A stretch of 44,612 bases of DNA from a virus: the IMG/VR virus record IMGVR_UViG_3300043640_000120, positions 1 to 44,612 of that record; one strand, given 5' to 3'. A model generated the notes under the pieces. The model was given only the letters and a program-made list of their open reading frames with translations. It was not told the origin of the DNA and made no database searches. The position numbers and the translations under genes are program-made. How positions within the stretch are numbered: the first letter of the stretch is position 1; every line of letters begins with the position of its first letter. Of this stretch, positions 3,276-44,612 are shown in pieces.

Positions 3276-4157
3276 CTAGTCGATCGTGATGATGCCGTCG
3301 ACATTGAAGTCGAGAAAGACGGTGCGCTCGATGCCGTTCACGAACGCTCGGTTACACTCGTCGGTGATGTCGTAGATGCCGAAGTCGATGTAATCGTCCC
3401 CGCCACTTCCGAGCTTCCAGCCGACGATCTGGCCTGCCTGCGAACGCTTCAGGCCGAGAGCCTCGTAGATCTCGTTCAGGAACACGAAGCCGTGCGTCCT
3501 CAGCCTGTCGTTTGCGAACCGCTCCTGCGCCTTCAGGAACGTAAGGTTGTACTCCGGAGTTTTGCTCCAGCTGGGGCTCGACTCGTCGAAGAACCGACCG
3601 TACACCGAAGGGATGACATCATCGTAGCGCTCGATGAGACACGCCTGAACCTCGTCCGGGTTTTCACCCTCGACGTAAGCCCGTCGGACCCCTCGGTAAA
3701 TATCGAGCTCTCGCTCAGGACCGACCTCCTCTTCCACGCGGGTCCTGTACGCCCGGAAGCCGCTGTCCAGAGCCGTGTAGGCCGCGATGAGGCCAGCACG
3801 CTGCTTGCGCATGATGCCGTTGGAAGTGAGGATGCAGAGCACCGACGCAGAGCCAACCATGATGGCCGGCGAGTAGATCTTCAGGAGTTCGACGCTGCGC
3901 CGGACGTAGACCTGGGCGACTTCCTTGGCCTGGTCCTTGGCGGTGTAGTCGTCGTCGACGGGCTTGACTCCGATGCGGTCAACGTCGTCCTTCATGTCGC
4001 CAATCACCGACTGGGACCTCAGGACAGCCTTGCCCACGAGCACCGTGGTGGCGGCAAAGCCAGCGACGCCGATGCTGGTGAGGATTGCGGGCGCATTCCT
4101 CTTCATGAACAACTCGGACTTACCGAGTGCCCGAGTGGCAACTAGCGACAGATTCAT
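3276..4157 (-). CDS. DUF6353-like membrane protein (copy 1)
   Basis: About 293 aa with two hydrophobic segments near the N-terminus (around residues 20-40 and 90-110) and a soluble C-terminal half with a conserved pattern including NEIYEALGL and a GYDI/FGIYD-type ending. It matches my memory of the DUF6353 family, common in phages of Gram-positive bacteria and of unknown role. It is paralogous to the protein at 6886-7635: same two-span layout, same segment of the type NAPxIL(T/S), and the same E-x-x-GP motif. I chose ATG 4157, with AAAGGA 12 bases upstream; a TTG at 4166 is the alternative. It is followed without gap by the next membrane protein. Confidence 0.8.
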   Translation of the reverse strand: MNLSLVATRALGKSELFMKRNAPAILTSIGVAGFAATTVLVGKAVLRSQSVIGDMKDDVDRIGVKPVDDDYTAKDQAKEVAQVYVRRSVELLKIYSPAIMVGSASVLCILTSNGIMRKQRAGLIAAYTALDSGFRAYRTRVEEEVGPERELDIYRGVRRAYVEGENPDEVQACLIERYDDVIPSVYGRFFDESSPSWSKTPEYNLTFLKAQERFANDRLRTHGFVFLNEIYEALGLKRSQAGQIVGWKLGSGGDDYIDFGIYDITDECNRAFVNGIERTVFLDFNVDGIITID

Positions 4158-4200
4158 GGTTCTCAAATATCCTTTGCGAGAAGTTGTTGGACGCGTGTAG

Positions 4201-6885: not shown

Positions 6886-7635
6886 CTAGTACTTTCCGTA
6901 GTCGGCCCGTGGAAGACGTACGTAGTTGACTGCAAGGCAGGGCCTTCCGTCGTCTGAGAGGTGTGAGCTGAATGTGAGCTCCATGCGGTTGTCGATGCTC
7001 CATCCCACTTCATCGCCGACAACCACTTGCTCCAGGCCAAGAAGCTCGTAAAACTCGTTGTGGGGGGCGTACATGTTGGCGAAGATGCTGGCGTTGACAT
7101 CGTTCATTGCCTTTCGTATTGCCTCTATATCGCTCATGAAATAGCGACCGGTGAAGGAGTCGAAGCAAAGCATCTCTCCGCCACGCGTAATGAGGACCTG
7201 CGCAGTGGATGCAGGATTGCTCTCAATGCGCTCCTGAGCCACTGCTTCTCTGACCTTCTGTTCCTTGTTCGGCCCGATCTCCTCGAGGACCTTCTCCTTG
7301 TAGTCCCGGAAGGCCGTGTCGACCAGTGTGTAAGCACCAACGAGAGCGACGTTACGTCGAGCCCCGATTGCGTTGACGCCGACGATGCAGGCGATGGTCG
7401 CCGCGCCCGTAAGTGCCGCTGGAATATAAAGCTTCCAGGTAACTGCCACCTTCTCCTTGACGGTTGGAGGATCGACGTCCTCCAGAACCTCGAGTTCGGC
7501 AAGGGCCTTAGGTGTGGCCCGGACGGCGAGAACTGCAGTTCCGATGACACCAGTGATGGCGATTCCGGACAGGATCGACGGGGCGTTGTCCTTAAGTGCT
7601 CGACTGATGACAGATATAAATCTATCGGTCTGCAT
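6886..7635 (-). CDS. DUF6353-like membrane protein (copy 2)
   Basis: A 249-aa protein; ATG 7635 is preceded by GGAAGGGA at good spacing, which decides it over the upstream in-frame ATG at 7701. Two membrane spans sit near residues 18-38 and 68-90, followed by a soluble domain with YTLVDTAFRDYKEKV, a GPN motif and NEFYELLGLEQ. It is clearly paralogous to the protein at 3276-4157, sharing the order of features over the whole length. Two copies within 3.5 kb suggest a heteromeric membrane complex or an old duplication; neither has a known role. Confidence 0.83.
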   Translation of the reverse strand: MQTDRFISVISRALKDNAPSILSGIAITGVIGTAVLAVRATPKALAELEVLEDVDPPTVKEKVAVTWKLYIPAALTGAATIACIVGVNAIGARRNVALVGAYTLVDTAFRDYKEKVLEEIGPNKEQKVREAVAQERIESNPASTAQVLITRGGEMLCFDSFTGRYFMSDIEAIRKAMNDVNASIFANMYAPHNEFYELLGLEQVVVGDEVGWSIDNRMELTFSSHLSDDGRPCLAVNYVRLPRADYGKY

Positions 7636-7708
7636 ACGTTCCCTTCCATTGTCTTGTTCGCGAAAGAAATATGAGACCATGCGTTGGATGCATAGTCTCA
7701 TAGGAGGA

Positions 7709-7891: not shown

Positions 7892-7926
7892 GTGGATTCC
7901 TAACAGACGTAGGGTGTGACGGGTTC

Positions 7927-7951
7927 ATTATAGGGCAGGTAAAACTTGCGA
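7927..7951 (-). promoter_or_regulatory. Promoter of the TCGC-N15-TATAAT family
   Basis: On the minus strand: TCGC, 15 bases, TATAAT, then GA. It precedes the 60-aa membrane protein and possibly the whole 7.6-2.1 kb operon. Confidence 0.8.
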
Positions 7952-7960
7952 GGCTTCGCC

Positions 7961-7995
7961 CGAGAAAAACCTAAAGCCCGTGTTAGGGGCTTTTT
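7961..7995 (-). terminator. Intrinsic terminator after the 59-aa gene
   Basis: Seven-base stem AAAGCCC/GGGCTTT with a CTAACAC-type loop, then AGGTTTTT on the minus strand. The plus strand also ends in five T, so it may act in both directions. Confidence 0.75.
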
Positions 7996-8185: not shown

Positions 8186-8209
8186 GGGGTCTCCTTAAGT
8201 AGGTGGTTC

Positions 8210-8234
8210 GTTATAGCCCCTGCGATTCTTGCGA
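8210..8234 (-). promoter_or_regulatory. Promoter of the TCGC-N15-TATAAT family (TATAAC variant)
   Basis: On the minus strand: TCGC, 15 bases, TATAAC, then GA. It lies about 25 bases before the GTG start of the 59-aa gene. Confidence 0.72.
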
Positions 8235-8240
8235 CGCACG

Positions 8241-8272
8241 AAAACTAATAGACCGTGTTGGGGTCTAATAGT
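8241..8272 (-). terminator. Intrinsic terminator after the 8293 gene
   Basis: Stem TAGACC/GGTCTA (8249-8254 with 8262-8267), extended by three pairs after one mismatch. The loop carries the same GTGTT(A/G) core as the other terminators. The minus strand continues TTAGTTTT. Confidence 0.65.
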
Positions 8273-8472: not shown

Positions 8473-8495
8473 GGATATGCCTTTCGTAGGGGTTC

Positions 8496-8520
8496 ATTAT
8501 AGGACATGTTTTTCATGCGA
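8496..8520 (-). promoter_or_regulatory. Promoter of the TCGC-N15-TATAAT family
   Basis: On the minus strand: TCGC, 15 bases with a GAAAAACATG core, TATAAT, GA. The -10 box ends 24 bases before the ATG of the 59-aa gene at 8293-8472. Confidence 0.82.
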
Positions 8521-8577: not shown

Positions 8578-8579
8578 TC

Positions 8580-8604
8580 ACTATATACCGTGTAATTCCT
8601 GCGA
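8580..8604 (-). promoter_or_regulatory. Promoter of the TCGC-N15-TATAAT family (TATAGT variant), driving no clear gene
   Basis: On the minus strand: TCGC, 15 bases, TATAGT, GA, with the same spacing as the other family members. It is followed only by the short hairpin element at 8530-8577. Confidence 0.7.
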
Positions 8605-9018: not shown

Positions 9019-9041
9019 GTTTGTCCTTTCGGCAGCTTCTC

Positions 9042-9066
9042 ATTATACAACGTGTTTTCCTCGCGA
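9042..9066 (-). promoter_or_regulatory. Promoter of the TCGC-N15-TATAAT family
   Basis: On the minus strand: TCGC, 15 bases, TATAAT, GA. It begins right at the holin stop codon, so it marks the break between the late operon and the small-gene array. Confidence 0.8.
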
Positions 9067-19466: not shown

Positions 19467-20249
19467 TTATGCAGACGCGAGAGTGTAACTGTCGCTGTCG
19501 ATGAACGTGGCTGTTGAGGAAATTATCTGGAATGTATCCGAATCCAGCATTTCAACAGAATCACTTGGACCGGTTACGGTGAACGTTCCGTCTTCGTTAT
19601 CGGTCACAGTAAACCCTGTAAATGCAGCAACCAACTCAGCCAGACTTGGAATTCGGGCAGCATCAGTATCGGTCCCATAGAGAATATCTTCAACCTCGGA
19701 GAGTGTATCCGAAGGAGCAAGACGGGAATCGAGTACTAGATGAGAAGTATTCCTGAACCCAGAAATAGCTGGAGGAAGAGTCGTTATGTCCCAGCTAAAG
19801 TTCGTCGGGTCTGACGAATCTTTAAGTGAGCTGTTTGTTCGCTGAGAAGGAGCGGCGAGAGCTCCGTAAATAAGATGTATCTTGTAGCCGTAGTTGTTTC
19901 CAACAAGCTCGTTTCCTACTTTGGTCCTGTAGGAAAGACCAAAAGGCTGCCTGCGCTGCGTCAGCGCAAACAAACCTCGAACCACTTGCACAGTTCCGTC
20001 ACAGACGCCAAATTCATCTGGATACGTGAATGCGCTGATGGTTGCTGCGAATTCCTCAGCGGCCGGAACGTTGAGGTACTTCATACCGTCAATGTAGTAT
20101 GGAGTTGCGGCTCCGCCAGAAGGACGTTCGTCGATCGAAGTCAGACCGTTCCAGGCGACTCCAGGCTGAGTACCAACGTACAGAACCCCTCTGTCTACGC
20201 CTGCTTCGTACACGTGCGCACCGCTGGCATCCCAGTTAATGCGTGCCAT
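19467..20249 (-). CDS. Major tail protein paralog 2, 260 aa
   Basis: ATG 20249 with AGAGGAGG. The N-terminal about 210 residues follow the tail-tube protein at 20826-21689 motif by motif: (W)DxSGxxxYExGVDxGVLY, GVAWNGLT, KYLN, TYPDEFGxCDG and a YRTKVGN segment. The C-terminal about 45 residues differ and form an acidic beta-rich extension. Both copies seem intact. The second could decorate the tube or form a distinct tube segment near the spike gene that follows. Confidence 0.85.
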   Translation of the reverse strand: MARINWDASGAHVYEAGVDRGVLYVGTQPGVAWNGLTSIDERPSGGAATPYYIDGMKYLNVPAAEEFAATISAFTYPDEFGVCDGTVQVVRGLFALTQRRQPFGLSYRTKVGNELVGNNYGYKIHLIYGALAAPSQRTNSSLKDSSDPTNFSWDITTLPPAISGFRNTSHLVLDSRLAPSDTLSEVEDILYGTDTDAARIPSLAELVAAFTGFTVTDNEDGTFTVTGPSDSVEMLDSDTFQIISSTATFIDSDSYTLASA

Positions 20250-20825: not shown

Positions 20826-21689
20826 TTAGGAGTGAGTGAACAGCCACTCGTCGACCGACACCGGGCTGAAGATGTAGCCAGCAGCCGGAGTGGCGTGAAC
20901 CACCTTGTTGGCGGTGATCGTGTGAGTACCAGGCGTGGCGACAATGCCGTCCAGCCAGTAGATCACGCCGGTCACGGTCGGAATCGTGATGACGTTCGAA
21001 GCGAACGTCGGGGCAGTCGGAGTGACTTCCGTCACGGTGCCAGCGAACAGCGCCAGAACGTCGTCCGGCATGGGCAGCGACGGCGGGTCGTCCACGGTTC
21101 CGAACAGAAGACTCTGAAGAGCCGTCAGGGCGTCCTCGTCGACCTGGGTGGAGTCGATCGTGATCAGCGAGACCGGAGCGAACCCAGAAGCGTTCACCGG
21201 AGTACTGGTCACGGCCCAGCTGAACGAAACCGCCGCCGGAGAGTCGTTGACGGTCGCGTAGGCCTTCTCGGAGGGAGAGGCCAGCAGGCCGTAAGCCAGG
21301 TGCAGCTTGTAGCCGAGCTCCGCGTTGACGTCGTTGCCGACCTTGGTCCGGTAGCAGAGACCAAAGGTCTGCCTCGGCTGCTGACCGACGTTCACGCCAG
21401 CCTCAGGCGATGCAGTGCCGTCGCACGGACCGAACTCGTCCGGGTACGTCAGTGCCTCGATCGTCGCGCCGAAGGTCTCGGCCGACAGAAGGTTGAGGTA
21501 CTTGATGTTGTCCGCGAACTGCGGGTTGGCATCCGCACCAGCCGGCGACTCAGTGACGGTCGTGAGACCGTTCCAGGCCACGCCGCTGTCGTACAGGCCG
21601 TTGGTGGAGTTGAGCGGGTACAGGACGCCGTGATCGACACCCGTCTCGTACAGCCGCTCACCAGAGGTGTCCCAGGCAATCTGGGTCAT
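20826..21689 (-). CDS. Major tail (tube) protein, 287 aa
   Basis: ATG 21689 with AAGGAGAAG. The sequence shows the motifs of Gram-positive siphovirus tube proteins: IAWDTSGERLYETGVDHGVLY, GVAWNGLTTV, TYPDEFGPCDG, and FGLCYRTKVGNDV. A C-terminal Ig-like extension (about residues 225-287, with YWLDGIVATPGTHTI) is probably a surface decoration. It is the more GC-rich and strongly expressed-looking of the two paralogs, so I take it as the main tube subunit. Confidence 0.9.
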   Translation of the reverse strand: MTQIAWDTSGERLYETGVDHGVLYPLNSTNGLYDSGVAWNGLTTVTESPAGADANPQFADNIKYLNLLSAETFGATIEALTYPDEFGPCDGTASPEAGVNVGQQPRQTFGLCYRTKVGNDVNAELGYKLHLAYGLLASPSEKAYATVNDSPAAVSFSWAVTSTPVNASGFAPVSLITIDSTQVDEDALTALQSLLFGTVDDPPSLPMPDDVLALFAGTVTEVTPTAPTFASNVITIPTVTGVIYWLDGIVATPGTHTITANKVVHATPAAGYIFSPVSVDEWLFTHS

Positions 21690-22328: not shown

Positions 22329-24293
22329 CTAGCTGGCGTCGCGCTTGAAGGTCCAGTCCTGGTTCGCGTCGTCCGCGAAGGAGTACGTGGACGCAGCCTT
22401 CGCCCGGTAGTGGACCGTGGCACCCGCGGAGATCGCGGTCTGGGCACCGGCGGTGAGAGCGGAACCCTCGGTACCGTCGGCCGCCACGACCACGTAGGTC
22501 ACGTGCGCGGTGGTCGGGATGGTGCCAACGCCAGTGCTCTTGACGAAGGTCGGAGCCGTCGGGTTCGGCAGCATGCCACCGGCACCGGCGAAGTCCTTCA
22601 CAACCAGGGCGCCCTTGTACTTGGTCATGGCACCGGAGACGCGAGTCTCCATCAGGTACTTGAACTGGTTGTAGTCGATGTCGAAGAAGTCGAACATCGA
22701 CACCTGGCCGCCCTTGTCGGCACCGATGGTGTAGTCCTGGAGGTTGACGATGATGCCGATGAGACCGGCGGTGGCCTCCAGCGCCTCACAGGGAACAATG
22801 GCCTTGACGCCCAGAGCAGCCGCCAGCTCGACGGTCGTCGGGTACAGCCTGCGACCCAGGGTGTCCTTGGCCAGCAGCATCTTGGACAGGTACGGAAGCG
22901 TGGTGTACATGATCGGGTTTCCCGAGCCACGGTAGTACCGCATGCCGGTCACGACGCCGTCCACGATCTCGTCGGCGCTGCTCGACGCGTCAGCCAGATC
23001 GATCTGCAGCGTGGTGACGTACAGCTCGTCGTCGCCCAGAATCGGGCGCACGTTGACCGGGTTGATCTTGTCCGCGTCGTCGACCTCACGGCCATCGCCC
23101 ACCAGAACGGCGCGAGCGAGCTCCTCGTCCAGCATGACCCGCATCTCGGTCTGCAGCCAGGCCACCACGTCGAAGTCAGTGATGTCCAGGATGTCGTCCC
23201 GGTCCAGCTTCTGCTTCTTGTAGACCGTCTGCGGAGTGGTGATCCGCTTGGCGACGGAGAAGTACTCTTCCTTCTTCATGTCGCCCTTGACGTAGCCCTT
23301 GGCCCTGGCCTCGTCGAGCGTGAGGTCAGCGGTCCAGCTGCGGATCCGGGAGAACGGGGTCTTGCGCGTACCGCTCAGGACGCCGGCCACCCACTCCATC
23401 CGCCGGGAAATCCATTCCGGGGTGTCGGTGACGGCCTGGTCGTACGGGAACAGCGTGCTGATGTCGTCGATACCGTGCGCCAGGGCGTACTCGTCGACTG
23501 CATCCTTGAGCGAACCGCACTTGTGCGCCGCGTTGAAGATGCCCTTGATGTCCGAATGCGTGAGAGTGCTGCCGGACTTCTTGTTGTCATCGGACTGGTC
23601 AAAGACGTTGTGGGACACGGAGTCGTCGCCCTTCTGGTCATCGGTGTGGGTTGCGTTGCTGGGGTTGGCTGGGGCTGAGCCCTTGACGGCTTCCGCGATA
23701 AGAGCGTACGTCACGTTCTTCTGCAGGTCGGTCATGCTGTCGACGACGTCGGCAACGGTCGGGCTGTCGTCCGAAGCTGGCGGCATTGGAGCCTTGTCGG
23801 GCATGACTCGCTTGGGTCCGGGCACAGTGGTGCTGGCGTGCTCCAGTTCTTCGCCGGTGTAGATGATGGCCTCATCAGCGAGTTCCATGACGCCGTCACC
23901 GTGCTGGATGTTGATGTTGTCGATGAACGCACCCGGGTTCGCCCCAGCCAGAACGAGACTGCCCTCACGAATGTTGCCGTGAGTGACGCTCTGACCCTGC
24001 TGAACCAGCTGGTTGGCGTAAATCGAAAGCGCCTTGATGTCCTTGTGAATGACGAGCTTCTTCGCGTTCTGACCCTGCTTGGTGTCATTGAAGAAGCCCT
24101 GAGCGTAGACACCTTCGTCGTTATGCTGCAGGATCAGATGACCCAGAACGTTCTCCGAGTCATTGTGCTGGTGCTGCCACACAAGCGGAATCTGCTGACC
24201 ATCGTTGCTCTTGAAGGCGTGCGCAAGAATCGTTCGCCCATCAGTGCACTTCAGGCCGTACTTGGTGACGTACCCGCTGAAATCAGGTACCAT
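22329..24293 (-). CDS. Prohead protease-major capsid fusion protein, about 654 aa
   Basis: The N-terminal about 150 residues are an HK97-type prohead protease: VWQHQHNDSENVLG contains the catalytic His (about residue 43) and KALSIYAN the catalytic Ser (about 90). A Pro/Ser/Asp-rich linker follows. From about residue 240 the sequence is a HK97-fold capsid protein (ISRRMEWVAGVL, a TPQTVYKKQKLDRDDI segment, LDEELARAVLVGDG, and KGALVVKDF). The last about 80 residues are an Ig-like surface domain. ATG 24293 has AAGGAG about 12 bases upstream; a TTG at 24305 is less likely. The portal stop lies inside its start. Confidence 0.9.
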   Translation of the reverse strand: MVPDFSGYVTKYGLKCTDGRTILAHAFKSNDGQQIPLVWQHQHNDSENVLGHLILQHNDEGVYAQGFFNDTKQGQNAKKLVIHKDIKALSIYANQLVQQGQSVTHGNIREGSLVLAGANPGAFIDNINIQHGDGVMELADEAIIYTGEELEHASTTVPGPKRVMPDKAPMPPASDDSPTVADVVDSMTDLQKNVTYALIAEAVKGSAPANPSNATHTDDQKGDDSVSHNVFDQSDDNKKSGSTLTHSDIKGIFNAAHKCGSLKDAVDEYALAHGIDDISTLFPYDQAVTDTPEWISRRMEWVAGVLSGTRKTPFSRIRSWTADLTLDEARAKGYVKGDMKKEEYFSVAKRITTPQTVYKKQKLDRDDILDITDFDVVAWLQTEMRVMLDEELARAVLVGDGREVDDADKINPVNVRPILGDDELYVTTLQIDLADASSSADEIVDGVVTGMRYYRGSGNPIMYTTLPYLSKMLLAKDTLGRRLYPTTVELAAALGVKAIVPCEALEATAGLIGIIVNLQDYTIGADKGGQVSMFDFFDIDYNQFKYLMETRVSGAMTKYKGALVVKDFAGAGGMLPNPTAPTFVKSTGVGTIPTTAHVTYVVVAADGTEGSALTAGAQTAISAGATVHYRAKAASTYSFADDANQDWTFKRDAS

Positions 24294-25590
24294 TTTGACT
24301 GTCAACTCCTTGAGGTATTGCTGGTACTTGTGGGAATACTGTCTTAGGAGGGAGTTGCGGTTTTGTCAACGCAACGCCGTTCTGTGGCAGTTCCCCATAA
24401 GCGGCCGGAAGGTTCTTGTTCAGCAACTGGTCAGCCTTCGGATCCTTCGAAGGTCTGAAACCGATAATGCTACGCATGTCGTTGGAGGAAAGGACCTCGT
24501 TGCGCGTGAACTTGTCTGCAATCTCGGCGAGATCTGCGACCGGAACAAGCTTGAACGGGTCTCGGATGTAGAGAATAGACTGATACTGAGACCGAGCGGT
24601 CTTCGTCAGGAAAGTTCTCTTTATGCCTTCTGTTATTGCCGCAAGTATCGGCTCTACAGTTCTGTTGTAGTAGTTCAACATAGCTGCTTCATCCGCCGTA
24701 CCGTTCATGATCTCTTCGGTAATCCCGAGTTGACCATAAAGCATGGTTGTCAGATACGTGATCTGAGCCATTAGATTGTTCTCGGCAGGTCGGTTAAGCT
24801 GCGTTATTTTCTCGGTGCCATCAGTATAGGCGATACCGTATCTTGAGTCCTTAAGCTGGAACTCAATTTCCTTGAGCCGCTTTTCAGCCTCTAGTCGACG
24901 AGACGGAGTCTTGATGACGTAAGGTAGCTGGATAATGATGTCCAGATTACCAGAAGCACTCTGCTCATCAATAGCGTCAAGTAGGTTAAGTTTCCTGATA
25001 AGACGCTGCAGAGTGGAATTCGGCTCGTTCATGACCGAGTAAAGAGGGTTCTCGACAATGGCGACCGTGCTCTTCGGAAGGATAACGTCTTGTTTCATCC
25101 CGGTTTCAGCATTATAAACCCGAACCTGCACCTTTTTCGGGTACCACTGCATCACCTTGCCGACACGCAACGTATTAACGTCGTATCCGCCAGAGGTAAT
25201 CGGATTCACTGTCGTATCGACAGGAACAATCGCGATTACGCCCTCGTCACAGAGGGTCATAGCCATGTCCTGACGGAAGGCCCTGGCTCCCTGATCAATG
25301 TTGGCCTGGATAGTAAGACACTCGTTGAGGCCGCTATCTATGTCTTCCAAATATCGTGCATCGGCATCGGTTCGGACGTGCTTGATGTCGACGGCGGCTA
25401 CATCAATGCCGATTCGCGTGTAGATCGAAGATATGATCGACCGCTCATTGACGAATCTCAGTCTGGTTCTGTCTGGACGATAGCTGTAAGATGTGCCCAG
25501 ATCCAGACCCCCTTCGGCTTCTCCAGGGTGCTTCTCCTGAAACACAAACGCATTCCAGGCGTGCTTAAGGCGGTCCTTAAAAGCTGCCAT
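24283..25590 (-). CDS. Portal protein, 435 aa
   Basis: The order and sequence fit an HK97/SPP1-class portal: RFVNERSIISSIYTRIGIDVAAVDIKH, YPKKVQVRVYNAETG, a stem-like region with RLEAEKRLKEIEFQL, and the GITEEIMNGTADEAAMLNYYNRTVEPIL signature seen in many Gram-positive siphovirus portals. It forms the dodecameric DNA channel of the head. ATG 25590 follows AGAAAGGGGGTGAA. The C-terminal about 50 residues are Pro/Gln-rich. Confidence 0.9.
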   Translation of the reverse strand: MAAFKDRLKHAWNAFVFQEKHPGEAEGGLDLGTSYSYRPDRTRLRFVNERSIISSIYTRIGIDVAAVDIKHVRTDADARYLEDIDSGLNECLTIQANIDQGARAFRQDMAMTLCDEGVIAIVPVDTTVNPITSGGYDVNTLRVGKVMQWYPKKVQVRVYNAETGMKQDVILPKSTVAIVENPLYSVMNEPNSTLQRLIRKLNLLDAIDEQSASGNLDIIIQLPYVIKTPSRRLEAEKRLKEIEFQLKDSRYGIAYTDGTEKITQLNRPAENNLMAQITYLTTMLYGQLGITEEIMNGTADEAAMLNYYNRTVEPILAAITEGIKRTFLTKTARSQYQSILYIRDPFKLVPVADLAEIADKFTRNEVLSSNDMRSIIGFRPSKDPKADQLLNKNLPAAYGELPQNGVALTKPQLPPKTVFPQVPAIPQGVDSQNGT

Positions 25591-27638: not shown

Positions 27639-28019
27639 CTAGCGATGCTTGCCGTGTCCAACCAGAAGCTTAGCGATGTCTCCCGCGTGCGCCTGCGCGT
27701 ACTTCTTGGCTTCCTGCTTGCCGATGTTCTTCGCTTCGCCGAGAAGCTCATTGAGAATCTTCTCGCCTGCCGTAGCGGACTTTTTGGAGACGTCGTCGTA
27801 CCGAGTCTCAAGGCCAAGACGCTTCAAGAGCACTTCAAACTCGTCGTTAGACAAAGATTTTGTGCCGCTTTTCTTAACCTGGGTCTTGAGCTCAGTCGCT
27901 CTGACATGATCTTCGGAAGATCCGACTCTCGGAGTCCCAGAACCCTTCTTGACTCCCCAGCGCATACCCTTAACGCCGAAGTGCTCCAGGAATTCATCAA
28001 CTGCTTGATCGTTTGCCAT
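27639..28019 (-). CDS. HYGVKGMKWG-motif virion-associated protein, 126 aa
   Basis: Near the N-terminus it carries EHFGVKGMRWGVKKG, a form of the HYGVKGMKWGVR motif found in many capsid-associated and Mu-F-like proteins of Gram-positive phages. The remaining sequence is a Lys-rich helical region with repeated Lys/Ala/Glu heptads. ATG 28019 follows GAGGTGAA. The motif suggests that it is incorporated in or processed with the head; the precise role of the motif is not known to me. Confidence 0.8.
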   Translation of the reverse strand: MANDQAVDEFLEHFGVKGMRWGVKKGSGTPRVGSSEDHVRATELKTQVKKSGTKSLSNDEFEVLLKRLGLETRYDDVSKKSATAGEKILNELLGEAKNIGKQEAKKYAQAHAGDIAKLLVGHGKHR

Positions 28020-32384: not shown

Positions 32385-32636
32385 CTAACTTCCTGAGTTC
32401 GCAATCTTCTTGTAAATCCCTAGCACGTTCTCCTTAACGATCTCATCGATCGCTTGCTCGATAGCTAGACTCTGATCAGCATCTGATAGATCAAGAGAGA
32501 ACCTAACTATACGAGCTAGGAAGCCAGGTGTGTCGTATCCCTGTTCCATGTCATATGCATACCACTCATCATAGTGAGTGAATGGATTCCATGGATTGTC
32601 TGTTGTTGTGAGCATGTGCTCATCGATGTTAGCCAT
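32385..32636 (-). CDS. Hypothetical protein, 83 aa
   Basis: ATG 32636-32634 overlaps the TGA of the 909-aa gene (TGATG), and AAGGAG lies just upstream. Acidic, soluble protein with a Trp/Tyr/Asp-rich N-terminal half and a helical C-terminal half (LSLAIEQAIDEIVKENVLGIYKK-like). It is probably translated together with the RNA-polymerase-like protein, so it may be a partner or a small cofactor. No family recognised. Confidence 0.78.
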   Translation of the reverse strand: MANIDEHMLTTTDNPWNPFTHYDEWYAYDMEQGYDTPGFLARIVRFSLDLSDADQSLAIEQAIDEIVKENVLGIYKKIANSGS

Positions 32637-35365
32637 CACTCTCCTTGAGCCAATGACTCGTAGAGTGTGCTTACTGCTACACCTAGAGCGTCCGCTACTT
32701 CAGCGTTAGTGTAACCTGAATTGAGCATGAGCCTAGCTCGATCCACCTTGGTCGGTGTCATCTTAAGTGTAGCTCTTGGTGTAGCTAGTTCCTTAACTCT
32801 CTCTAGATCTGAGTTGTCAAGGATTTTAGACAACATGTTGCTGCTGATAGCGCCTGCCTGGATGGCTTCCCATTCTTCAGGGGTGATGGTGATCTGCTGC
32901 TTCTTCGCACCAACACGCTCACGAGCAGTGACAAGAGCCTGACCCTTGATCTTCTTTAGGTCGGCTCCCTCAATGGTGGGGTTGTCACGGCGCTTCGCAT
33001 CGACCATGGTGTTGGCAAGAAGCTGCGCCTGTCGTTCAAGAGGCTTGTTCTTGAGGGCGGTGTTCAGCTTACTCTTGAGCAATGCCACCTGATGAGCATA
33101 GGTTTTGTTAGCAGTGGGGGAGTAAGTCAGACCACCAGTTGTTACCGACTCTTTACGAGCAGAGTTAGCAAGCGCCTTCAGACTGTTCGAATGATCGGCG
33201 TAGATACGTTCGATTGGCGTACCAGAAGACAGAGTGTGAGCGTCTTCTACATTGGCCAGCCTTGCAATCTCCTTTGTCTTGACGACGGTGTTTCCGGTTG
33301 TCTTGTCTACGTAGGATTCGTTAGTATCTACGTAGACTTTCTTTCCTGTGGCCTTGTCTATCGGGCCGCCTTGTGCAGCAGGCCTAGGAATTCTATCTGG
33401 AATCCGAACTTTACTGTTAGTCCCGGATCTTGAGATGAGGGTTGATGCGCCAGCTAGACGACCGGTTGGGCCTCGACCTTGATACTTCTCTTTGAGCGAG
33501 GCGATTCCGTTGTCCACATAAGACTGCTTGTAATTCAGCTTATGCTTCTCAGCATCGATCACAACCATGGAGTGTCGCACAGCTCGCGCTAGTTCCTCGG
33601 GCTTAGCGCCCTTGATGGTCATGTCGGTGATGAGATTAGAAACGTCGCCCATCTGCTGCTGCTTGATTCTGCCAGAAGGCTTCTTACCACCATAGTCTAC
33701 GCTTTTGGTGGCAGCGTTATAGGTTCCGCCATCCATAGTCCGCATCCCATCATAGGGAGCGAAGGATGTTTTAGGATCGAAATCCTTAAGTCCGGACAAA
33801 GGCGATGACGTTTTAATGTCCTGCCTATTGTTCGGAATTACGAGAACCGTGTCACCATCGAAGTCGGCTCCTGACAGTCGCTCAGCAACCTTGGGATGAA
33901 TGCCGATAGCATCGATGGCGTTGCCAATAGTCTTCTTGGCATCAACGTTCTTGTTGTTGACTACGAGCTCAGGAATCTCGAACGTTCCGCCATGAGGGAA
34001 CCGAATCAGAACGACACGCTGACCGTTGAGGTAGCTAGGCGCATAGACTTCGGTGGGCTTCATTCCCTCGATCGGGAGGATAACACTTGTTCTCTGATGA
34101 GGTAGAGCTGCAGCCTTAAGGTGAACTGCTGCCGAATCGGCTCCATCGGCAAAGGTGTCGAGAAGCTTCTTCTTAACGACTGGGTTCGTCAGTGCGTTGA
34201 TTTCAGCGAGTTCGTCTTTCCTCGATCCGAGTCCAAGATCGAGTTGCTTCTTAGCTAGAGTGGTACTCTGCTTAGAAAGCATCTGTGATGAAAGAGAACG
34301 AGACCAGTCGCTCCAGTCTCCTTCCTCATTCACGATATTCATGACGGAAAGCTGGTCTTTACCTTTCGCGTCTTTGTAATATCGCTGATGAACCGTTGCG
34401 CCGAAAGGATTTTCTTCGTCATCGGTTTTGAGTGATTTCATGGCGTCGAGCTTGTTGCCAGTGTTTCTCTTGTTCGTGTTGAACATGAGGTCTACGCCAG
34501 GCGGCAGGTCATCTTTGTACATGGCCATGCCCTTGAGGTAATGCGTTCCATCTACAGCTATACGAACCTGAGCGTAGCGAGAGTTGCCGAGTGAAACGTC
34601 ATCGACGCCTCGACGTACATAGACAACGCCGTCAGCGTTTGCTCCGCCTTGTTCTGCATACCGAATCGCGACCCGCTTGGAATCGATACTTTTCGGAGGA
34701 ACAATGGCCTTGATGGTTCGGCCGCCATCATCACTGTATCCAGCAACAGATTTGATGTTGGTCGGATTCCTGACTATGTCAGCATAAGTTGTTCCAGGAG
34801 GAGCCAGAACCCTGATCGTAGTCTTGTTACCGGTGCCGAGCTGATCGACCTGGATGTTGTGGACCTCGTAGCCCTCTTGCTTCAGCATTGCGACTGCAGT
34901 AGAGAGTTTCGTTTCGCTAATATCGAGATGTCTCTCGGTACCAACGCCGATGTCCAGATATCCGTCTTTGCCGACTCGCTCCTTAAGGAAGTCCGCAGTG
35001 GTCTGTAGAACGTCCCGTCGTTCAGCCATAGCTGGGTCAGTCAGTGATCTGACCGATGACTCGTTGATGCCCATTCGCTCGCCAATGGCGACGTTGGACA
35101 GACCTTTGTCTTTCAAGCGAAGAGCTTGAGCCGCATCGGCTTTACGAGTTTCGTTCTTAGCTATGGCTTTCGCAGCACGCAGCTGTGTCGTGTTGATACC
35201 AAGACCTTTAGCGATCTCAGGATCTGACAGACCACTCTTCCTAAGTCCGTCGACGTATCCAAGAAAGTCTCTCCCGCTTCGAGGAACATTCTCTCCTGAA
35301 CCCCATGGATATCGCCCCGAGTGACGGGGAGTTCCATAGTGAATCAATTGATTGTCGTCCACCAT
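32636..35365 (-). CDS. RNA-polymerase beta'-like (double-psi beta-barrel) protein with HTH segments, 909 aa
   Basis: ATG 35365 has GGAGGG five bases upstream. The first 25 residues hold HYGTPRHSGRYPWGSGE, a relative of the HYGVKGMKWG virion motif. Two helix-turn-helix-like segments follow (about 42-62 and 87-108). At about 455-457 and 488-511 the layout VVLIRFP, then IHPKVAERLSGADFDGDTVLVIP parallels the beta' subunit motif R-x-P...HPxVCxxxNADFDGDxMxxxxP; Asp501, Asp503 and Asp505 would hold the catalytic metal. The C-terminus carries a third HTH-like segment (SGYTNAEVADALGVAVSTLY). It is plausible as a single-subunit YonO/crAss-like RNA polymerase for late or early genes. Polymerase activity itself is inferred; a non-catalytic DPBB protein is possible. 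Confidence 0.75.
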   Translation of the reverse strand: MVDDNQLIHYGTPRHSGRYPWGSGENVPRSGRDFLGYVDGLRKSGLSDPEIAKGLGINTTQLRAAKAIAKNETRKADAAQALRLKDKGLSNVAIGERMGINESSVRSLTDPAMAERRDVLQTTADFLKERVGKDGYLDIGVGTERHLDISETKLSTAVAMLKQEGYEVHNIQVDQLGTGNKTTIRVLAPPGTTYADIVRNPTNIKSVAGYSDDGGRTIKAIVPPKSIDSKRVAIRYAEQGGANADGVVYVRRGVDDVSLGNSRYAQVRIAVDGTHYLKGMAMYKDDLPPGVDLMFNTNKRNTGNKLDAMKSLKTDDEENPFGATVHQRYYKDAKGKDQLSVMNIVNEEGDWSDWSRSLSSQMLSKQSTTLAKKQLDLGLGSRKDELAEINALTNPVVKKKLLDTFADGADSAAVHLKAAALPHQRTSVILPIEGMKPTEVYAPSYLNGQRVVLIRFPHGGTFEIPELVVNNKNVDAKKTIGNAIDAIGIHPKVAERLSGADFDGDTVLVIPNNRQDIKTSSPLSGLKDFDPKTSFAPYDGMRTMDGGTYNAATKSVDYGGKKPSGRIKQQQMGDVSNLITDMTIKGAKPEELARAVRHSMVVIDAEKHKLNYKQSYVDNGIASLKEKYQGRGPTGRLAGASTLISRSGTNSKVRIPDRIPRPAAQGGPIDKATGKKVYVDTNESYVDKTTGNTVVKTKEIARLANVEDAHTLSSGTPIERIYADHSNSLKALANSARKESVTTGGLTYSPTANKTYAHQVALLKSKLNTALKNKPLERQAQLLANTMVDAKRRDNPTIEGADLKKIKGQALVTARERVGAKKQQITITPEEWEAIQAGAISSNMLSKILDNSDLERVKELATPRATLKMTPTKVDRARLMLNSGYTNAEVADALGVAVSTLYESLAQGE

Positions 35366-35366
35366 A

Positions 35367-35921
35367 TTATCCCTCCCCCTTGAGGATATCGATGCGTCGA
35401 TCGAATACAACGATCTTGTCCATGATATGCGCGATAACGTCGACGTCTGGGACGCACGCTAGAATCTCGTCATTCTGGTAGATGCGAAGTTCTATCGCAA
35501 TCTCACCAGGCTTGACGCCGTACTCGAGGCAGAACAAGGACGCGTAGATCTCAAGCTGATGCATCGATCCTTCATTGACGCCTGTTTTGAGATCATGAAT
35601 CCTGAGAAGATCTTTCCTGAACGAGATTGCATCAGCTGTACCGTAGCTGTTGTCCGAGTAGTAAAGAATCTGCTCAGGACTCATTCGGTAGCCGAGTGCG
35701 TCATTCACGTACGAGTTCATAGTCGTGCTGTTGCGAGGAAGCTTGATGCCCAGACGAATCGCGCTGTGCGCAAACTCGTGGAGCTCGGTTCCTCGTTTAG
35801 CTGCCTGAGCGTTTCTGTATGCTGCGTCAAGCTTTTCCGGATCGTAGTTGATCCAGTGGTACTTACTTGCGCTCAGGAATGCGTGGCGCCCGATCAGATC
35901 GGAATGCGCGTTGAAGATCAT
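35367..35921 (-). CDS. Cas4/RecB-like PD-(D/E)XK exonuclease, about 184 aa
   Basis: The motifs are GTELHEFAH (His about 48), GTADAISF (Asp97), HDLKTG (Asp110, Lys112) and QLEIYA (Gln122 to Tyr126), the order of the RecB/Cas4 nuclease family. ATG 35921 starts with MIFNAHSDLIGRHAFLSASKYHWINYD, which resembles the N-termini of phage recombination exonucleases; a TTG at 35978 is less likely. It overlaps the preceding gene by 59 bases and ends right at the next gene's ATG (TAATATG). Likely role: recombination, DNA-end processing or host DNA degradation. Confidence 0.85.
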   Translation of the reverse strand: MIFNAHSDLIGRHAFLSASKYHWINYDPEKLDAAYRNAQAAKRGTELHEFAHSAIRLGIKLPRNSTTMNSYVNDALGYRMSPEQILYYSDNSYGTADAISFRKDLLRIHDLKTGVNEGSMHQLEIYASLFCLEYGVKPGEIAIELRIYQNDEILACVPDVDVIAHIMDKIVVFDRRIDILKGEG

Positions 35922-36234
35922 GCAGGACCTGATCCTTGTTATCGGGATGGATGATGGCTGCGAAAGACATGTCGCCAAGCAGTTTTATGTAATGTGCCTG
36001 ATTTGGCTGGCGTGTGGCTTTTTCGCTAGCTTTACATTCTAGCATCGCCCACTGTTTCCCGAAAAGAAGGAGCAGATCAGGAAGACCTTGTATGTAGTCT
36101 GTTGGGGTCTTGATTACCAGACAACCCTCGAACGTCTTTTTGAGTTCTTTTATGAGGGAAGCCTGGAATTTGCTTTCGAGATTCGTCATACTATTGTATC
36201 CCAAAATGAGAAGGCGGGTTAGAATGTTGGGCAC
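35863..36234 (-). CDS. PD-(D/E)XK nuclease (Holliday-junction-resolvase / VRR-like), 123 aa
   Basis: GTG 36234 with GAAGGA five bases upstream. Motifs: helix ESKFQASLIKELKK with Glu20, then IQGLPDLLLLFGK (Asp53) and MLECKAS (Glu66, Lys68), the PD-(D/E)XK core as in VRR-NUC and phage resolvases. It pairs with the exonuclease overlapping its 3' end. A role in resolving branched replication DNA is likely from family knowledge. Confidence 0.83.
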   Translation of the reverse strand: MPNILTRLLILGYNSMTNLESKFQASLIKELKKTFEGCLVIKTPTDYIQGLPDLLLLFGKQWAMLECKASEKATRQPNQAHYIKLLGDMSFAAIIHPDNKDQVLHDLQRAFRSDRAPRIPERK

Positions 36235-38592: not shown

Positions 38593-38635
38593 AAAAAAGA
38601 GAGAACAAGAGCCCGTGTTAGGGACTCCTGATCTG
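38593..38635 (-). terminator. Terminator after the 76-aa gene (repeat copy 1)
   Basis: Minus strand: stem around a TAACAC loop (GAGTCCC with GGGCTC, one bulge), then TTGTTCTCTCTTTTTT. The whole 43-base block is nearly identical to 38929-38971. Confidence 0.72.
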
Positions 38636-38870: not shown

Positions 38871-38894
38871 TTGCTTCCTTAGTTTAGGGGGTTC

Positions 38895-38919
38895 ATTATA
38901 GGCCATGTTTTTCGCGCGA
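38895..38919 (-). promoter_or_regulatory. Promoter of the TCGC-N15-TATAAT family
   Basis: On the minus strand: TCGC, 15 bases with GAAAAACATGG, TATAAT, GA. It is 25 bases before the ATG of the 76-aa gene. Confidence 0.82.
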
Positions 38920-38928
38920 GTACCATGC

Positions 38929-38971
38929 AAAAAAGAGAGAACAAGAGCCCGTGTTAGGGGCCCCTGATCTG
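38929..38971 (-). terminator. Terminator after the 33-aa gene (repeat copy 2)
   Basis: Copy of the 38593-38635 block, with the same loop and a C/T-rich and T6 end. It overlaps nothing coding and lies between the 33-aa gene and the next promoter. Confidence 0.7.
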
Positions 38972-39079: not shown

Positions 39080-39103
39080 CTGGGTTCCTTTCAATAGGGT
39101 CTC

Positions 39104-39128
39104 ATTATAGGCCGTGTTTTTCCTGCGA
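39104..39128 (-). promoter_or_regulatory. Promoter of the TCGC-N15-TATAAT family
   Basis: On the minus strand: TCGC, 15 bases with GGAAAAACACGG, TATAAT, GA. It is immediately behind the terminator of the secreted-protein gene and serves the 33-aa gene. Confidence 0.82.
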
Positions 39129-42867: not shown

Positions 42868-44612
42868 CTAACTGGTGAACCATTCGAAGTCACCGTACTG
42901 GGAGACGTTCAGAACTGCGTCATCGGTGAGCTTGGTGAAGTAGGTCTTGTCGATATCTCCTTCGAGGCCGAGATCTCTGACGGACTGAGCTTCTCTCCAG
43001 AAATATCCCTTGGAACCAGAAGCTGAATGGAAAACGCCATCCTTGCCCCTGAGTAGGAGACCCCCACCAGTTCCTTCTCGAACTGGAACGAACGAACCAG
43101 CCCTTCCAACAAAGTGAGGTTCTCCGCTTCCAAAGTCAAGATACAGCGCGGCGGTGACTGTTCTGGTTTCGCAGTGGTCATCGAATACCAGGGGCTCCTT
43201 ACTGAATAGCGTCTTGAAGACGTACGGGTGCTGGAACTGCGCCCCTGTGGCTGTCCACTGGCCGTTGCTCTTCTTGGCTATGTAAACCGCGTCGTTCACC
43301 AGGCAGAACTTGGAGAAGGTCTCCTCGTGCTCGAACTCGTAACCGTATCCCTTACCGAAGTCCATCACGAATTCGACGATCTCCGGAGTAGCGTCAGGAA
43401 TCTTGATCGAGTCCGTCTTAATATGAATGACTTTGAAGCCTCGAGCTTGTACAGCCTCCTTCAGGTCGATCATGAACAGGGCACCGCGCTTGGCGACGAT
43501 GTTGTCCTTATTCCTTAGGTCGCGGAACGGGTTGTCGAAGGACGCCGATGTGAGCCCGTATACGATGTTGATGACGATCTTGAGCGCATCCGAAAGCGCC
43601 TTAGCATCCTCTTCAGATCCGAGATACGGCCTGAGCTTTCCACCAAGCATTCGTCGTGCTGTGGCATAGTCTTTCCTCTTAATTGCGATTCGGGCATCGG
43701 TGAGGTCTGAGAAGTTCTTGGTGTAAGGACCAAACAGATCAAGAATCTTGATTGAGGTCGGGTGCATGGAAGCGACGTCGAGGACGGCAACGTCCGTATA
43801 CATACCAGGCTCGGCGTAAACGTAACCGCCCTCACCTGTAATCTCACCCTTGTAGATACTCTTTCCGAAGTCGTATTCATAACCCGGGAACCTTTCCGAG
43901 AGATGCGTGTAGACGAACTTCTGCTGAGCTTTCTTGTCATCGCCAAATATGATCTTGGCAGTGTGCTTCTGCGTCGTGTCGTTGATCGTGAGGCCGCTGA
44001 GTTCAGCGAGAATCTGCCGTGCAACGTAGTCCTGGATCCTTGACTCGAATACCTGCTCAGTCGTGATGACGTCGTTGGCGCAGTACTCCAGCACTGATTC
44101 CCACATCTCACGCGTGACTGGCTCATCCCACGGAAGGCCGAGCTCCTTGTGATGCAGGCCCAGCTCGATCTGGAACCGCTTGAGTCCCTTCTTCACGGAA
44201 GAGAAGTCCCAGATGTCAGCGTGCGACAGGTTGTACGCCTCGCCGAAGAAGGATCCTTTCTCTCCGGCAACGATTCTCTGACTGAGGTTGTACAACTGGA
44301 TCTCGCTATAGCCCATAATGCGGGCGTACAAGATATGGTTGTCGTACCGACGGTTGTTGAATCCGACAAGCTTCATCTGAACCAGCTGCTCAATGGCCTG
44401 CGGGCTAGGGTTCAGCATCCTGACTACTGTGGGATCTCCGCGGTACTTCCAGCAAACAGCAAATAGGTTAGGAAATACCTCAACGTCGTACATCACCAGG
44501 CGATCATCTGTAGGAACAGGCGCTGGCGTCTCCTGCAGCTCTGATACGAACTGCATGTCCATGACCAGCTTGATGCAAGCCAGGGCCTGGTGGGTCGAAT
44601 TGTTAGCGAATG
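42868..44612 (-). CDS. Replication multi-enzyme, C-terminal part: proofreading exonuclease and family B DNA polymerase
   Basis: The frame is open to the window end and joins the frame of 1-2090 across the circular junction, giving a 1,235-aa protein; this part carries about residues 672-1235. Exonuclease motifs are DVE (Asp697, Glu699), a GFNNRRYD segment and YCANDV, a DEDDy 3'-5' proofreading domain. Polymerase motif A is LDVASMHP (Asp933), motif B is KIVINIVYG (Lys999) and motif C is HIKTDS (Asp1055). The usual first Asp of the DTD signature is Lys here, but the metal-binding second Asp is kept. The internal Met at 44562 has no ribosome site, so I do not treat it as a start. TAG at 42868-42870 is followed at once by the ribosome site of the next gene. 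Confidence 0.92.
   Translation of the reverse strand, partial: FANNSTHQALACIKLVMDMQFVSELQETPAPVPTDDRLVMYDVEVFPNLFAVCWKYRGDPTVVRMLNPSPQAIEQLVQMKLVGFNNRRYDNHILYARIMGYSEIQLYNLSQRIVAGEKGSFFGEAYNLSHADIWDFSSVKKGLKRFQIELGLHHKELGLPWDEPVTREMWESVLEYCANDVITTEQVFESRIQDYVARQILAELSGLTINDTTQKHTAKIIFGDDKKAQQKFVYTHLSERFPGYEYDFGKSIYKGEITGEGGYVYAEPGMYTDVAVLDVASMHPTSIKILDLFGPYTKNFSDLTDARIAIKRKDYATARRMLGGKLRPYLGSEEDAKALSDALKIVINIVYGLTSASFDNPFRDLRNKDNIVAKRGALFMIDLKEAVQARGFKVIHIKTDSIKIPDATPEIVEFVMDFGKGYGYEFEHEETFSKFCLVNDAVYIAKKSNGQWTATGAQFQHPYVFKTLFSKEPLVFDDHCETRTVTAALYLDFGSGEPHFVGRAGSFVPVREGTGGGLLLRGKDGVFHSASGSKGYFWREAQSVRDLGLEGDIDKTYFTKLTDDAVLNVSQYGDFEWFTS

Follow-up and report, generated by a model that had tools for sequence, protein, structure and literature searches.

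A likely single-chain two-barrel RNA polymerase of a phage and the 30-bp early promoters that it may read

Does the gene at positions 32636–35365 of the viral DNA studied here encode a transcriptase of the phage's own and, if so, from which promoters would it start? The DNA is IMG/VR record IMGVR_UViG_3300043640_000120 (44,612 nucleotides (nt), in its whole length referred to as the window), and the original prediction, made from the letters of this DNA, had seen in the gene an ADFDGD motif of the type found in the β′ subunit of RNA polymerase (RNAP). The answer that we consider likely is a phage single-chain, two-barrel, DNA-dependent RNAP that reads 30-bp early promoters and is probably delivered with the virion. 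Computation supplied the fold, the conservation, the promoter family and the overlap between carriers of the promoters and carriers of the enzyme; catalysis, reading of these promoters by the enzyme, packaging and the sharing of genes with the host polymerase are inferred from them.

32636–35365, minus strand: probable single-chain two-barrel RNA polymerase gene, 909 amino acids (phrog_4291), recognized by the phrog_4291 profile, an AlphaFold2 model and Foldseek

If an upstream TTG is counted as the start, the open reading frame (ORF) covers 32636–35410 (minus strand) and gives a 924-residue reading. The ATG at 35365, with which the homologue starts coincide, is most likely the true start, and it is also where the original prediction had ended the gene. 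Residues 16–922 of the 924-residue reading align with positions 6–907 of 909 in the phrog_4291 profile (E = 0), which PHROGs labels 'RNA-dependent RNA polymerase'. A tblastn search with the protein matched 250 phage records, 249 of them with at least 80% query coverage in one match and with identities of ~39–59% among the matches listed; carriers include phages of Streptomyces, Arthrobacter, Gordonia, Rhodococcus, Microbacterium, Curtobacterium, Lactococcus, Faecalibacterium and others. The family itself is already known: PHROGs and RefSeq hold members under the RNA-dependent RNA polymerase (RdRP) label, frequent in RefSeq, SEA-PHAGES uses 'helix-turn-helix DNA binding domain protein', and the FP_oengus record has 'putative RNA polymerase'. 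It may be among the 23 RNAP families surveyed by the authors of the P23-45 study (PMC10770324). Such names are automatic or partial, and members such as ReqiPepy6 gp106, Bilo gp57, 1706 orf75 and the FP_oengus protein share a full-length family match, similar neighbors, an N-terminal tag and helix-turn-helix (HTH) units. The name 'putative transcription factor D5', carried by oral-phage homologues, was dropped because no D5-named gene was found in the T5 stretches examined.

An AlphaFold2 model built from a 60-sequence alignment (mean predicted local distance difference test (pLDDT) 83, predicted template modeling score 0.70) places the following parts.

34250–34702, minus strand: first double-psi barrel (DPBB-A), residues 222–372, with invariant Q266, R268, K278-G279 and K365-Q366 (fragment model, conservation)
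33833–34093, minus strand: second double-psi barrel (DPBB-B), residues 425–511, with R455-x-P457-H458 and ADFDGD (strand and helix order in the model, profile match)
33851–33868, minus strand: ADFDGD, residues 500–505, proposed Mg-binding triad D501/D503/D505 (conserved in 151/151)
33542–33670, minus strand: conserved helical region after DPBB-B, residues 566–608 (MGDVSNLITDMT...HSMVVIDAEKH), proposed bridge-helix region (model helices 566–584 and 589–608)

In a Foldseek comparison with the PDB, ranks 1–14 were QDE-1 (best E 1.5e-8, probability 1.0, ~970 aligned columns), followed by P74-26 gp62 (E 2.6e-6) and plant RDR2, with crAss-like phi14:2 gp66 (probability 0.57) and many β′ subunits as weaker matches; P23-45 gp64 was among the top matches in a viral structure library. 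The template modeling scores are modest (~0.3), which may reflect differing domain placement, so what carries the fold claim is the agreement among the hits rather than any single score. Sequence searches of the PDB with the single protein, the profile or the core fragment returned nothing relevant, and fold comparison alone succeeded. The isolated DPBB-A fragment models at pLDDT 91 and had no Foldseek match at E < 0.001; its best weak matches were mostly double-psi barrels (p97/NSF N-domains, NarG, formate dehydrogenase and FwdD, all of which we take to be proteins with such domains). Structure prediction thus supports a single-chain double-psi-barrel RNAP, as had been predicted for this virus, and the gene very probably encodes a one-piece RNAP that is distant kin of the cellular enzyme.

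The active-site residues point the same way. The predicted layout of R-x-P, about 30 residues and then HPKVAERLSGADFDGD is present as R455-F-P457-H458 ... H490-P-K-V-A-E-R-L-S-G-A-D501-F-D503-G-D505-T-V-L-V-I-P. DFDGD (501–505) sits between helix 491–496 and strand 506–511 of the model, within a barrel loop, and is kept in 60/60 homologues of the first alignment and in all 151 members of a more diverse set that reaches down to 43% identity; Q266, R268, K278, G279, K365, Q366, R455, P457, H458, D501, D503 and D505 do not vary in that set, and no homologue was found to be purely structural. The two barrels would form the active site within one chain, D501, D503 and D505 of barrel B binding Mg and Q266, R268, K278 and K365 of barrel A contacting the nucleoside triphosphate and the hybrid. 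In QDE-1, DPBB1 supplies the invariant Q736, K743 and K767 (PMC1750930). Q266 and K278 lie in 'YAQVRIAVDGTHYLKG', for which the counterpart in P23-45 gp64 reads 'WAQVRMFSRRGNEIFRAWKG'; by motif reading they are natural candidates for Q736 and K743, as K365 is for K767.

Comparison with known systems places the protein nearest to two groups. It shares with QDE-1 and the eukaryotic cell-encoded RdRPs a single chain, two double-psi barrels in the same order, candidate equivalents of the invariant DPBB1 Gln and Lys residues and the best fold match, but differs from QDE-1 in its added HTH domains, its DNA phage context and a Pfam RdRP score below cutoff. P23-45 gp64 and P74-26 gp62 match in fold, have the AQVR and KG signatures in barrel A and ADxDGD in barrel B, and transcribe phage DNA from promoters of their own, as is proposed here; however, their promoters differ, the profile match to gp64 is non-significant (probability 11–15%), gp64 has no Pfam HTH match, and it is a non-virion enzyme. 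Membership of the YonO or crAss gp66 family, the kin named by the original prediction, was not borne out at sequence level. YonO of SPbeta is likewise a single-chain two-barrel phage RNAP with a DxDGD triad and a gene near terminase and other late genes, but it lacks the tag, transcribes late genes and gave a non-significant family alignment (hhalign probability 2.9%). The crAss-like phi14:2 gp66 is a two-barrel virion RNAP delivered in the way proposed here, but is a 2,166-residue chain with a weak fold match, and its genome lacks the promoter motif described below. The family profile also matched a plasmid-encoded cyanobacterial protein of 1,216 residues that contains DFDGD (probability 97%, E 1e-10); YonO-like proteins in cyanobacteria are mentioned by Forrest et al. 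(PMC5467207).

Around this two-barrel core, HTH units have been added at both ends.

35048–35266, minus strand: two N-terminal HTH units, residues 34–60 and 74–106 (Pfam HTH_23 for the second unit, model helices)
32642–32755, minus strand: C-terminal HTH, residues 871–908 (Pfam HTH_7; model helices 871–882, 887–894 and 898–908)

HTH_23 matches residues 74–106 (E 1.1e-8, 909-residue numbering) and HTH_7 residues 872–902 (E 1.4e-5), in agreement with the predicted HTH segments on both sides of ADFDGD. The N-terminal model helices (34–43, 48–54, 59–86, 91–98 and 102–109) contain an additional three-helix unit at 34–60, immediately preceding HTH_23, so that the protein probably has two N-terminal HTHs and one at the C terminus.

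Which DNA these units might recognize is suggested by a promoter family that the original prediction had placed elsewhere in the genome, and which is real: TCGCA-N6-ACA-N5-TATAATGA, with a rigid 14-nt spacer and without a −35 box. Scanning the window with TCGCA-N14-TATAATGA at ≤1 mismatch gave seven copies ahead of early genes, all on the minus (coding) strand at 7.9–9.1 kb and 38.9–39.1 kb.

39102–39128, minus strand: promoter-family copy TCGCAGGAAAAACACGGCCTATAATGA (motif scan, as for all seven)
38893–38919, minus strand: promoter-family copy TCGCGCGAAAAACATGGCCTATAATGA
9040–9066, minus strand: promoter-family copy TCGCGAGGAAAACACGTTGTATAATGA
8578–8604, minus strand: promoter-family copy TCGCAGGAATTACACGGTATATAGTGA
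8494–8520, minus strand: promoter-family copy TCGCATGAAAAACATGTCCTATAATGA
8208–8234, minus strand: promoter-family copy TCGCAAGAATCGCAGGGGCTATAACGA
7925–7951, minus strand: promoter-family copy TCGCAAGTTTTACCTGCCCTATAATGA

The copies are confined to the early half of the circular genome, with none in the late region (9.4–32 kb) at the same threshold. Repeated terminator-like hairpins (families D4/D6) lie near them on the minus strand at 38606–38630, 38942–38966, 7963–7991 and 8238–8266, which suggests small one-gene transcription units. Some sites look tRNA-like, but ARAGORN found no tRNA there, and these sites were therefore not used to argue where transcription starts.

A logo was built from 55 sites in loci chosen independently of the motif. 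The spacer is 14 in 55 (0–4 sites at other spacers) and positions C1, G2, C12, T21 and G25 are invariant; as TCGCA, TATAATGA and the spacer had been used to pick the sites, the unbiased observations are C12 and the near-flat upstream region only. Across the 55 sites, information is nearly flat upstream of TCGCA, with neither a −35 element nor TGn before TATAAT, and in 48 a ribosome-binding-site-like sequence with a start codon lies no more than 60 nt downstream (median 24 nt).

Elements of the same geometry occur in RNAP-bearing phages of Streptomyces, Rhodococcus, Gordonia, Arthrobacter, Lactococcus and Faecalibacterium. Streptomyces phage Bilo, whose polymerase is 59% identical, has five copies with identical spacing, and 20 of 25 RNAP-bearing records hold 3–15 copies, always on one strand (reversed-pattern control, one hit in total). 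The motif was absent from eight phages without this RNAP (ReqiPine5, ReqiDocB7, phiC31, R4, SPbeta, P23-45, T5 and phi14:2, the last two searched with the relaxed pattern only). A protein-independent scan of viral contigs with TCGCAN6ACANGGCNTATAATGA returned 119 stretches. Of the 28 source contigs that reach 40 kb, all retrieved through the motif only, 24 encode the polymerase. With a 33-nt blastn query against 50,697 phage records, matches fell in Gordonia (55), Streptomyces (50), Arthrobacter (19), Siphovirus (12), Rhodococcus (4) and Microbacterium (1) records, against 55, 54, 95, 12, 4 and 4 polymerase carriers, respectively, a comparison made by count and not record by record; Mycobacterium records gave zero matches in the same search. 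Listeria hits (27 in all) were set aside as chance, those seen being single partial matches at E ~4, inside coding sequence where annotated.

The geometry persists where the boxes themselves have drifted. Lactococcus phage 1706 (34% G+C, against 54% in the window) has 7–10 copies of CRCATGTTTTACATAYACTATAGTAG with a 14-nt spacer and none with other spacers on that strand. A weight matrix, built with P078 and Xenomorph left out, found six copies in P078 and seven in Xenomorph, with zero on the opposite strand and zero in reversed sequence. When FP_oengus was searched for enriched dyads without a template, CGCGA-N14-TTTATG ranked first (score 20.7, versus at most ~7 in Markov shuffles), with 13 copies reading GACGCGAAAAAnnCAgnnTcCTTTATGGA; this element has CTTTATGGA, a box outside the σA −10 consensus, in place of TATAATGA, and alignment on the central CA puts it in the same register, to within the boxes. 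Fixed geometry kept while boxes drift, across very different base compositions, argues for a phage-borne reader, for which the polymerase is the obvious candidate. Being nearly co-extensive with the RNAP in phages whose hosts are unrelated, and free of σ70 architecture (a −35 hexamer at a 16–18-nt spacing, or an extended −10), the family provides the best candidates for the polymerase's own promoters. In the open-access literature searched, no promoter or mechanism is attached to this protein family, and the enzyme–promoter link appears to be new there.

How the enzyme might reach these promoters early is suggested by its N terminus.

35294–35341, minus strand: N-terminal tag HYGTPRHSGRYPWGSG, residues 9–24 (disordered in the model yet invariant)

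The N terminus is modeled as disordered (pLDDT <50 over residues 1–20 and 22–32), and HYGxxRxSGRYPWGSG is among the most conserved stretches of the family, Lactococcus members included. A search with the strict tag fetched 119 ORFs: 103 with DFDGD, that is, all those whose catalytic region was present, 14 cut at contig ends, and 2 others that start like the polymerase. The strict tag is thus nearly RNAP-specific; in MT835616, a gut phage contig that carries no annotation, the variants SGRYKWGSG and SGRYKYGSG are found on two small proteins, one on either side of a terminase-like ORF. In its original form, the phage 1706 record gives the label 'structural protein' to orf7, to orf75 (the polymerase) and to two small ORFs at a distance from the head genes, a pattern suggesting that these proteins were detected directly in virions; the same label on ReqiPoco6 gp106 was repeated by similarity. 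The invariant disordered N terminus and these labels together suggest virion packaging. A peptide of similar shape but different sequence (HFGVKGMKWG) is found in the window beside the large terminase gene, and also on 1706 orf7; it is possibly a related virion tag.

27639–28019, minus strand: small protein with HFGVKGMRWGVKKG (Pfam DUF7211, PF23847, E 4.3e-12)

On contig L010 (11393–12304), the DUF7211 peptide is carried by a 2′-5′ RNA ligase/LigT-domain protein, weakly Acb1-like and possibly a tagged anti-defense cargo. A broader proposal, which we regard as slightly less likely than not, is that a widespread siphophage lineage of Gram-positive hosts (Actinobacteria and Firmicutes) packages an HTH two-barrel RNAP by means of its N-terminal tag, injects it and starts transcription from a rigid, co-evolved ~30-bp promoter, with DUF7211 peptides on other head-region proteins as related cargo tags.

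In the mechanism that we favor for the window, the polymerase would be expressed from the last part of the replication operon, and its disordered N terminus would probably direct it into newly made heads; once injected, the polymerase would read the early genes at once. Its two N-terminal HTHs and single C-terminal HTH would bind the ~30-bp promoter without a sigma factor, 14 nt being fixed between TCGCA and TATAAT and the element lying ~24 nt ahead of the starts of small early genes. The late genes would be left to the host polymerase, which likely serves them as the late region holds no copy of the motif. A two-enzyme transcription plan had been predicted; what stands of it is the reality of the promoter family, the place of the gene beside the late block and a likely second polymerase, that of the host, for the late genes, whereas the promoter family did not hold as evidence for a separate second enzyme.

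Several observations weigh against this mechanism. TATAAT, as in σA promoters, is present in most promoter copies. One RNAP-bearing contig (G012) lacks the motif when ≤1 mismatch is allowed, and 4 of the 28 motif-bearing contigs, which may be truncated, match neither the RNAP nor its neighboring exonuclease. Related phages are non-independent evidence in the co-distribution counts, which may partly mirror common descent rather than direct recognition. The proposed match of K278 and K365 to QDE-1 lysines is a motif reading, the 'structural protein' label comes from GenBank records, and a gene within an early/replication operon is unusual for a virion enzyme.

The main rival plan resembles that of YonO, which transcribes the late operon of SPbeta and adjoins it (PMC5467207). 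The host σA polymerase would read the TATAAT promoters, and the phage polymerase, made early, would transcribe the adjoining late operon of packaging, head, tail and lysis genes. The position of the gene beside the late block, the TATAAT boxes and the motif-free late region all fit this plan. However, the early motif has no −35 box or extended −10, its 14-nt spacer is rigid and its central C never varies, it tracks the RNAP between phages as different in G+C as the window and 1706, and its FP_oengus box is CTTTATGGA; no conserved late promoter turned up, no systematic search having been made. We consider this plan unlikely, if a serious competitor. Improbable too, and more so, is a real polymerase alongside a 30-bp element read by another shared phage factor, such as a sigma-like protein, an activator or a repressor: operators can also be rigid repeats and co-distribution cannot part the RNAP from co-inherited genes, but neither a sigma factor nor a DNA-binding regulator was found among the ten early-region proteins (Pfam) or the proteins scanned with PHROGs, and the RNAP is the only transcription enzyme among the genes annotated in both 1706 and Bilo. 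Record names for homologues might imply a DNA-binding protein with a structural or regulatory role and with barrels that are no longer catalytic; this is scarcely credible, as an Asp triad and other active-site residues invariant in 151/151 would be unexpected in a dead enzyme. Equally far-fetched is an RNA-dependent enzyme acting on phage or host RNA, for which the phrog_4291 label, the QDE-1 fold and Pfam RdRP (PF05183) matches over the 566–608 region in homologues speak, because these matches (12.2 bits for this protein, 21.0 and 22.1 for two homologues) all fall below the gathering cutoff of 23.8, the protein carries DNA-binding HTHs in a DNA phage, and the characterized phage two-barrel enzymes of YonO and P23-45 are DNA-dependent (PMC5467207, PMC10770324).

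The surroundings of the polymerase gene are conserved. As predicted, it ends just ahead of the lysis/packaging block, and in linear relatives a single gene separates it from cos.

35367–35978, minus strand: Cas4/RecB-like exonuclease, encoded immediately upstream of the polymerase (phrog_3953, E 4e-77)
32385–32639, minus strand: small conserved gene downstream (phrog_4303), placed like the gene that comes last before cos in linear relatives

The exonuclease neighbor is conserved in Bilo, FP_oengus and ReqiPepy6, and in 1706 the exonuclease gp69 is nearby but non-adjacent. The record itself probably holds a whole phage genome, assembled as a circle, since its ends (1–127 and 44486–44612) are identical over 127 bp. 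A DNA polymerase ORF at 42868–44562 covers only the C-terminal part (700–1285 of 1304) of phrog_4210 and probably continues across the record junction. Elsewhere on the minus strand, 41071–41697 matches the Pfam family Tad3 of type I Thoeris inhibitors (E 8e-31) and is a probable anti-defense gene; 19467–20249 and 20826–21689 are two nearby genes of the major tail protein family phrog_2645; at 22329–24305 a head maturation protease and the major head protein appear to form a single fusion (phrog_3270 + phrog_10); and the early region has two copies of a DUF6353/phrog_2152 protein (3276–4166 and 6886–7701).

About 250 deposited phages carry this polymerase gene, mostly under the names 'HTH DNA-binding protein' or 'RNA-dependent RNA polymerase', and the enzyme and its candidate promoter signals are now testable together. 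As a compact (~100 kDa) relative of the cellular RNAPs with built-in DNA-binding domains and a short promoter, it would offer a tractable system for sigma-free promoter finding by a two-barrel polymerase. The diverged promoter versions in Streptomyces, Lactococcus and Faecalibacterium phages form a natural series for enzyme–promoter co-evolution, and polymerase and promoter would supply an orthogonal transcription pair for Gram-positive bacteria.

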